Below, in pieces: positions 33,512-36,975 of a stretch of DNA of 38,814 nucleotides. This DNA is from Candidatus Levybacteria bacterium RIFCSPHIGHO2_01_FULL_36_15b (lineage in GTDB: Bacteria > Patescibacteriota > Microgenomatia > Levybacterales > UBA12049). The first letter of the stretch is position 1. Each line of letters starts with the position of its first letter. Under the pieces are notes generated by a model, which searched no databases, was not told the DNA's origin, and saw nothing but the letters and a program-made list of their open reading frames with translations. Both the position numbers and the translations under genes were made by a program. The stretch lies in contig MFNK01000003.1 in NCBI GenBank assembly GCA_001782045.1, forward strand, positions 165,905-204,718. Direction: 5' to 3'.

Positions 33512-36148
<2,637 letters not shown>

Positions 36149-36151
36149 AGT

Positions 36152-36180
36152 TTGATAAAAACCTCTGAATCTTTTAAAAT
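36152..36180 (+). promoter_or_regulatory. tRNA-Thr promoter
   Basis: TTGATA (36152-36157) - 17 bp - TAAAAT (36175-36180), 8 nt before the mature tRNA 5' end. Confidence 0.7.
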
Positions 36181-36188
36181 AATCTCAC

Positions 36189-36260
36189 GCCGAAGTAACT
36201 CAGTGGTAGAGTAGCTCTTTCGTAAAGAGCAAGTCGTGAGTTCAAATCTCACCTTCGGCT
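36189..36260 (+). tRNA. tRNA-Thr (anticodon CGT)
   Basis: Acceptor GCCGAAG/CTTCGGC, anticodon arm GCTCT-TTCGTAA-AGAGC, T-arm GTGAG-TTCAAAT-CTCAC; CCA not encoded. Confidence 0.95.
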
Positions 36261-36264
36261 CTGT

Positions 36265-36975
36265 ATGAGAAGAAAAACAAGGTTAAGTAGATATAGTGAA
36301 AAGAAACAAAAGAAAACTTTTTTCTTGAGTATTTTAGGAATTATCGTTTTGCTCTTCTTATTATTTAGATATGGACTGCCAACATTAATCAACTTTAGTC
36401 TTTTTTTAGCAGGAAATAGAGAACCAGCTAACCTAGTGGACAAAAAAGATCCTTTATATATTGCCCCTCCTGTTTTTGACTCTATGCCTGTTGCAACCAA
36501 TAGCTCCCGAATAGAAATCAAGGGAATTGGAGAAAAAAATTCTAAAATAGAATTATATATTAATGGTAAAAAAAATAGTGAAATATTAACTAATGAGGAT
36601 GGAAAATTTTCATTGGATGTAATATTAAAAAGCGGAGAAAATATTTTTACAGTAAGGCAACTTATAAAAGACAACAAAAGTGAATTTTCTTCTGCGTCCA
36701 CTATATATTTCAAAGACACTCCCCCAATGCTAGGCATTACTTTTCCATCTGATGGAGCAAACTTTAAAAAAGAGGATAGATTTATTGAAGTTAAAGGAAA
36801 TACAGATGTAAATGTTACGGTTACGGTTAATGGATTTTACTCAGTTATTAGTGAATCAAATATATTTTCATATACACTAGGATTGCATGATGGGGAAAAT
36901 GAAATTAAGGCAATTGCAGAGGATATTGCTGGAAATAGAACTGAAAAGTCTGTAAAAGTTAACTATTCTCCGTAA
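36265..36975 (+). CDS. Membrane-anchored surface protein with repeated Ig-like domains
   Basis: Basic N-terminus plus TM helix; two Ig-like beta modules (IEIKGIGEKNSKIELYINGK..., FIEVKGNTDVNVTVTVNG...IKAIAEDIAGNRTEKSVKV). Confidence 0.7.
   Translation: MRRKTRLSRYSEKKQKKTFFLSILGIIVLLFLLFRYGLPTLINFSLFLAGNREPANLVDKKDPLYIAPPVFDSMPVATNSSRIEIKGIGEKNSKIELYINGKKNSEILTNEDGKFSLDVILKSGENIFTVRQLIKDNKSEFSSASTIYFKDTPPMLGITFPSDGANFKKEDRFIEVKGNTDVNVTVTVNGFYSVISESNIFSYTLGLHDGENEIKAIAEDIAGNRTEKSVKVNYSP

Follow-up and report, generated by a model that had tools for sequence, protein, structure and literature searches.

In the genome of Candidatus Levybacteria bacterium RIFCSPHIGHO2_01_FULL_36_15b, a tRNA-Thr(CGU) gene ends four nucleotides before the ATG of an ORF encoding a 236-aa membrane-anchored protein. 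Judging from sequence, we put a probability of roughly 0.55 on the two being co-transcribed from the tRNA promoter, with the transcript cut at the tRNA 3' end and the released mRNA translated in a near-leaderless fashion. The window analyzed is a stretch of 38,814 nt from this genome (G000; 798,884 bases, rated 99.9% complete, with about 800 ORFs and 42 tRNAs, a size and gene content that point to Patescibacteria), and it contains the following features at the locus, numbered from its first base.

35738..36148, + strand: atpC, last gene of the atp operon, encoding the ATP synthase epsilon subunit (PF02823, 7.8e-25; PF00401, 5.8e-8)
36152..36157, + strand: -35 element TTGATA (TTGATT is equivalently placed in the sister genome G001)
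36175..36180, + strand: -10 element TAAAAT, kept in relatives and giving a predicted transcription start at ~36187
36189..36260, + strand: tRNA-Thr(CGU) with discriminator T36260, CCA not encoded (ARAGORN, Rfam RF00005)
36261, + strand: C74, directly following the discriminator; 42/42 tRNA genes of G000 and 43/43 of G001 have it
36261..36264, + strand: CTGT, by sequence the entire tRNA-to-ATG spacer, predicted to remain as 5' leader on the released mRNA
36265..36975, + strand: ORF for the 236-aa membrane-anchored protein, ATG at 36265 (PF09136, 7.1e-18)

The tRNA (anticodon CGT) matches RF00005 at 36189-36260 with 70.2 bits, and ARAGORN places it at 36189-36261 with C74 counted in. An initial annotation of this DNA had described a promoter of the form TTGATA-17-TAAAAT (36152-36180) ending 8 nt before G1 of the tRNA, which a sequence scan reproduces exactly, and an ATG at 36265 lying 4 nt past the discriminator at 36260, which is correct to the base. 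Its statement that the ORF lacks a Shine-Dalgarno (SD) sequence also holds, with nothing SD-like upstream of the ATG. The scan found no terminator-like site between atpC and the tRNA promoter. The tRNA and the ORF lie on the same strand with no visible promoter between them, as is the case for bacterial tRNA-mRNA operons.

A match to a promoter of the TTGATA/TAAAAT type is, on its own, not above chance (15 found versus 16.2 expected in shuffled sequence). What supports the tRNA-Thr promoter is the fact that G001 keeps its geometry and position, that similar -10 elements (AATTTCATANAAT type) precede tRNA-Thr in many family members, and that the -10 hexamer begins at -14 from the tRNA, the commonest position for the tRNA genes of G000. 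This geometry predicts a 5' leader of about 2 nt on the tRNA, in agreement with the near-absent leader proposed earlier, and gives no support to a long one.

The 236-aa protein has a basic N-terminus with an SRL-like motif, one apparent transmembrane segment, and a Glucodextranase-B/Ig-like domain (PF09136), and orthologues were found in 55 of the 60 relatives searched. When the homologues are aligned, the start methionine falls within a few residues of the SRL-like motif in nearly all of them and no conserved methionine appears further in, which rules out a downstream start codon; by this alignment, ATG 36265 is the correct start. No -10 box is found about 12 nt before this ATG, where the sequence is CTTCGG of the tRNA acceptor stem, and on this ground we rejected the idea that the ORF has a leaderless promoter of its own. 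The absence of a separate ORF promoter had been part of the original claim and is borne out here, and of the three observations named at the time as telling against the proposal, namely an independent ORF promoter, a conserved start further downstream and a long tRNA leader, none was found.

The junction at tRNA-Thr(CGU) has counterparts elsewhere in the genome. In 5 of the 42 G000 tRNAs, namely Ile(GAU), Leu(CAG), Lys(CUU), Val(CAC) and Ser(GGA), an ORF of 143-788 codons has its ATG one base past the discriminator, i.e., directly after C74 (gap of 1 nt; p~2e-8, based on a random-site rate of 0.00185). Other tight gaps follow Lys(UUU) (2 nt), Thr(CGU) (4 nt), Leu(UAG) (9 nt) and Trp (10 nt), so that an ORF starts no more than 9 nt after the tRNA at 8/42 tRNAs in G000; the corresponding count in G001 is 7/43. 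The genes behind the tight G000 tRNAs are unrelated to one another, including a glycosyltransferase, a NUDIX protein, GSDH, a DUF2079 membrane protein, trigger factor and a DNA alkylation repair protein. In G001, the spacing differs by no more than one base at Val(CAC), Thr(CGU) and Leu(UAG), and most of the other junctions are not conserved.

Across 76 genomes of the class, surveyed with a tRNA pattern that captures roughly half of tRNAs, an ORF of at least 79 codons begins at 14 of some 24 genuine tRNA-C-ATG sites, and among sites with a gap of 2-9 nt, 10 of the 22 sampled open at least 100 codons. The outside control, a single Heyndrickxia genome and thus a thin one, gave 0/9. Enrichment of ATG after C74 by pattern alone is weak class-wide because chance ATGs are frequent; the opening of a long ORF is the informative measure, and a reversed-pattern search is unsuitable as an ATG control. 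The single case of tRNA-Thr is thus less special than was first held, and the genome-wide pattern is more so.

Leaderless initiation is probably a common, normal mode in G000, because -10 boxes cluster about 12 nt before ATGs without any enrichment of SD motifs. Strict -10 hexamers lie at -14..-11 from the ATG in 68 of 247 promoter-proximal ORFs in G000 (about 10 per equal window otherwise) and in 61 of 215 in G001 (versus about 9), counts which take the first ATG of each long frame as its start and do not give the true leaderless share. Genome-wide scans of G000 and G001 showed no enrichment of SD-like motifs in promoter-proximal ORFs, and the 3' end of the G000 16S rRNA (start of contig C3) retains the anti-SD. 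A search of the open-licence literature found no reports of leaderless use or of tRNA-delimited mRNAs in these bacteria. With tRNA|ORF junctions recurring and leaderless initiation probably normal, the organelle-like punctuation that the initial annotation had suggested is plausible on sequence grounds and partly supported; what speaks against it is that no RNase Z was found and that spacing and orientation vary among relatives.

From this sequence evidence we infer that tRNA-Thr(CGU) and the 236-aa ORF would form one transcription unit read from the tRNA promoter, possibly joined by read-through from the atp operon. Transcription would begin some 2 nt ahead of the tRNA and continue into the ORF, and a nuclease probably other than canonical RNase Z would cut the RNA after T73 or C74, at or just past the 3' end of the tRNA. 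The freed tRNA would then have its CCA completed by the nucleotidyltransferase, and the released mRNA, with a leader of 3-4 nt, would be translated by the ribosomes of this lineage in leaderless or near-leaderless mode. A point against this mechanism is that a leader of 3-4 nt is not strictly leaderless.

As for the processing enzymes, G000 has a candidate RNase P RNA (RF00010 at G000:C2:68239-68594, E 1.1e-18, 61 bits, below the gathering score), with RF00010 matches in 34 of 36 relatives, and a homologue of the CCA-adding enzyme. A canonical RNase Z was not found in G000 or G001 by profile, six-frame motif or tblastn searches, and the enzyme was rejected as the tRNA 3' cutter for this reason. 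The TIGR02651 profile gave only a weak RNase J-like match, and the six-frame search for H-x-[HD]-x-DH returned RNase J-like and ComEC-like frames in G000 and an RNase J-like frame alone in G001. Clear RNase Z matches occur in only about 6 of the 36 relatives. The identity of the punctuation enzyme is therefore in doubt, and if tRNA 3' ends were instead trimmed by exonucleases, tRNA maturation would destroy the mRNA.

RNase Z normally cuts CCA-less tRNA after the discriminator and disfavours C74 in such tRNAs. In G000 and G001 a C follows the discriminator in 85/85 tRNA genes (42 and 43, respectively), with the full CCA encoded in 7 of each, which would fit another route. Other members of the class likewise have tRNAs with an encoded C74, and most family genomes are without a detected canonical RNase Z, though CCA is mostly not encoded in them. 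A bolder proposal, which we regard as unlikely, is that this lineage routinely makes leaderless mRNAs by tRNA 3'-end formation, with an endonuclease other than RNase Z cutting after the encoded C74; at an N73-C-ATG junction, a single cut might then, with the same low probability, yield both an mRNA starting exactly at AUG and a tRNA to which only CA must be added.

We compared the Thr-ORF neighbourhood in 56 loci. The tRNA-Thr(CGU) lies upstream of the ORF on the same strand in 41 of these. Three of the 41 have a gap of 1 nt between discriminator and ORF, six have 3-4 nt, another 12 have at most 30 nt, and the remaining 20 have longer gaps, the longest exceeding 1000 nt. In four loci (L019, L021, L053 and L055) it lies beside the ORF on the opposite strand, and in the remaining 11 no tRNA-Thr(CGU) adjoining the ORF was found; in 5 of these 11, all from family f2, the ORF directly follows atpC and has no SD. 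The 4-nt gap recurs in G001 (CAAT) and G033 (CACT), and G001 keeps both promoter and gap though the spacer sequence and 42% of the protein residues differ. The expectation that the spacing would be conserved in relatives is thus borne out among near relatives and fails elsewhere, where gaps run from 1 to >1000 nt; conserved in near relatives only, the exact 4-nt spacing was set aside as evidence of function. Separately, the shown stretches of loci L052 (G041:C9) and L056 (G051:C15) are identical, while their genomes belong to different families, possibly reflecting a misbinned contig.

Within -15..-9 of the ATG, none of the 21 loci with a gap of at most 30 nt has a -10 box, compared with 7/20 loci with longer gaps and 2/4 with an inverted tRNA. 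At the 13 tightest loci the tRNA sequence itself partly dictates this absence, because a promoter would have to fall inside the tRNA. The distribution suggests that the ORF is expressed leaderlessly where it has a promoter to itself, and that it depends on transcription from upstream where the tRNA lies nearby. The tRNA is not essential to the ORF, as far as these sequences tell, given the variable gaps, own promoters at longer gaps, four inversions, and the f2 loci with the ORF behind atpC.

The alternative that survives best, which we consider somewhat unlikely, keeps co-transcription and does away with punctuation. Exonucleases or a distant cut would make the tRNA 3' end, so that each transcript yields either tRNA or mRNA, the ORF would be translated from uncut dicistronic RNA or from atp read-through, and the short gap would reflect compaction only. 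Small gaps are indeed common in this compact genome, where 313 of 560 classified ORFs lie no more than 30 nt behind a same-strand neighbour, and the failure to find RNase Z, the SD-less f2 ORFs directly behind atpC, and a predicted fold that would put the AUG just outside the tRNA cloverleaf all point the same way. Nevertheless, with a folded tRNA no more than 5 nt from an SD-less AUG, the 30S subunit would have little room to bind, and compaction alone would hardly produce five exact C74|ATG junctions at genes unrelated to one another. A second alternative, that the tRNA and the ORF have merely been adjacent for a long time, with the ORF using an unrecognised promoter (in atpC, in the tRNA, or for another sigma factor), draws on their linkage surviving both inversion of the tRNA (in the four loci named above) and gaps >1000 nt, so that linkage does not need co-transcription, but we find it distinctly improbable, as no -10-like hexamer sits at the position usual for G000 and a -10 box occurs in a good share of long-gap and inverted loci and never in tight ones.

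Formation of mRNA 5' ends by tRNA processing is known from organelles, and the co-transcription and cleavage that we favour resembles tRNA punctuation in animal mitochondria in having a tRNA flush with an ORF (4 nt at Thr(CGU), 1 nt at five other tRNAs), no SD, an expected near-leaderless product, several such tRNAs per genome, and an RNase P candidate (the RF00010 match). In contrast to animal mitochondria, only a minority of tRNAs are involved in G000 and bacterial promoters stand directly before tRNAs. The 3' cutter in mitochondria is RNase Z, which was not found in G000, where the cut itself is one that we infer. Tight junctions at 8 of 42 tRNAs, set against about 800 ORFs, also mean that most mRNAs are not tRNA-delimited. 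Because of these last two differences, the Thr-ORF junction cannot be classed as mitochondrial-type punctuation; it may work similarly.

The E. coli thrU-tyrU-glyT-thrT-tufB unit likewise has a tRNA promoter upstream of tRNAs and a coding gene on one strand, but 114 nt separate the end of thrT from tufB, enough for a normal leader, as opposed to 4 nt at Thr(CGU) and 1 nt at five tRNAs in G000. Mycobacterial leaderless mRNAs, in which a start codon at +1 is favoured, share with G000 a -10 box shortly ahead of the ATG and sparing use of SD sequences (PMC4633059). Their 5' ends are transcription starts (PMC4633059), whereas those at the G000 tRNA junctions would need RNA cleavage.

If the favoured reading is true, tRNA processing and not transcription start makes some mRNA 5' ends in a large uncultured group of small-genome bacteria, and gene expression there would be tied to tRNA maturation. 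Leaderless translation would be expected as a major mode in the group, an unrecognised route of tRNA 3' processing would be indicated, and start-site annotation and operon prediction would change for these genomes.

Nested tRNA genes were also seen in 10 relatives (L011, L013, L049 (=L211), L212, L213 and L215-L219). In such a case an insert splits the anticodon of an outer tRNA between positions 35 and 36; this insert holds a complete tRNA with the same anticodon and often has CCCGCCTGCC...GGGCAGG ends. The anticodons concerned are Thr-CGU, Thr-GGU, Ile-UAU, Ile-GAU and CAU, with inner and outer copies agreeing in 10/10 and all having U36, and a strict form of the pattern occurs in 9/281 genomes and 0 times in a reversed control. 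Because the outer copies range from intact to decayed, this suggests, from sequence comparison, that tRNA genes may repeatedly have given way to a similar tRNA borne by a REP-like element. In L043, L052, L056, L213, L215 and L218, the D-loops or T-loops of tRNA remnants likewise contain REP-like palindromes or other insertions, as if the element favours the hairpin loops of tRNA genes.
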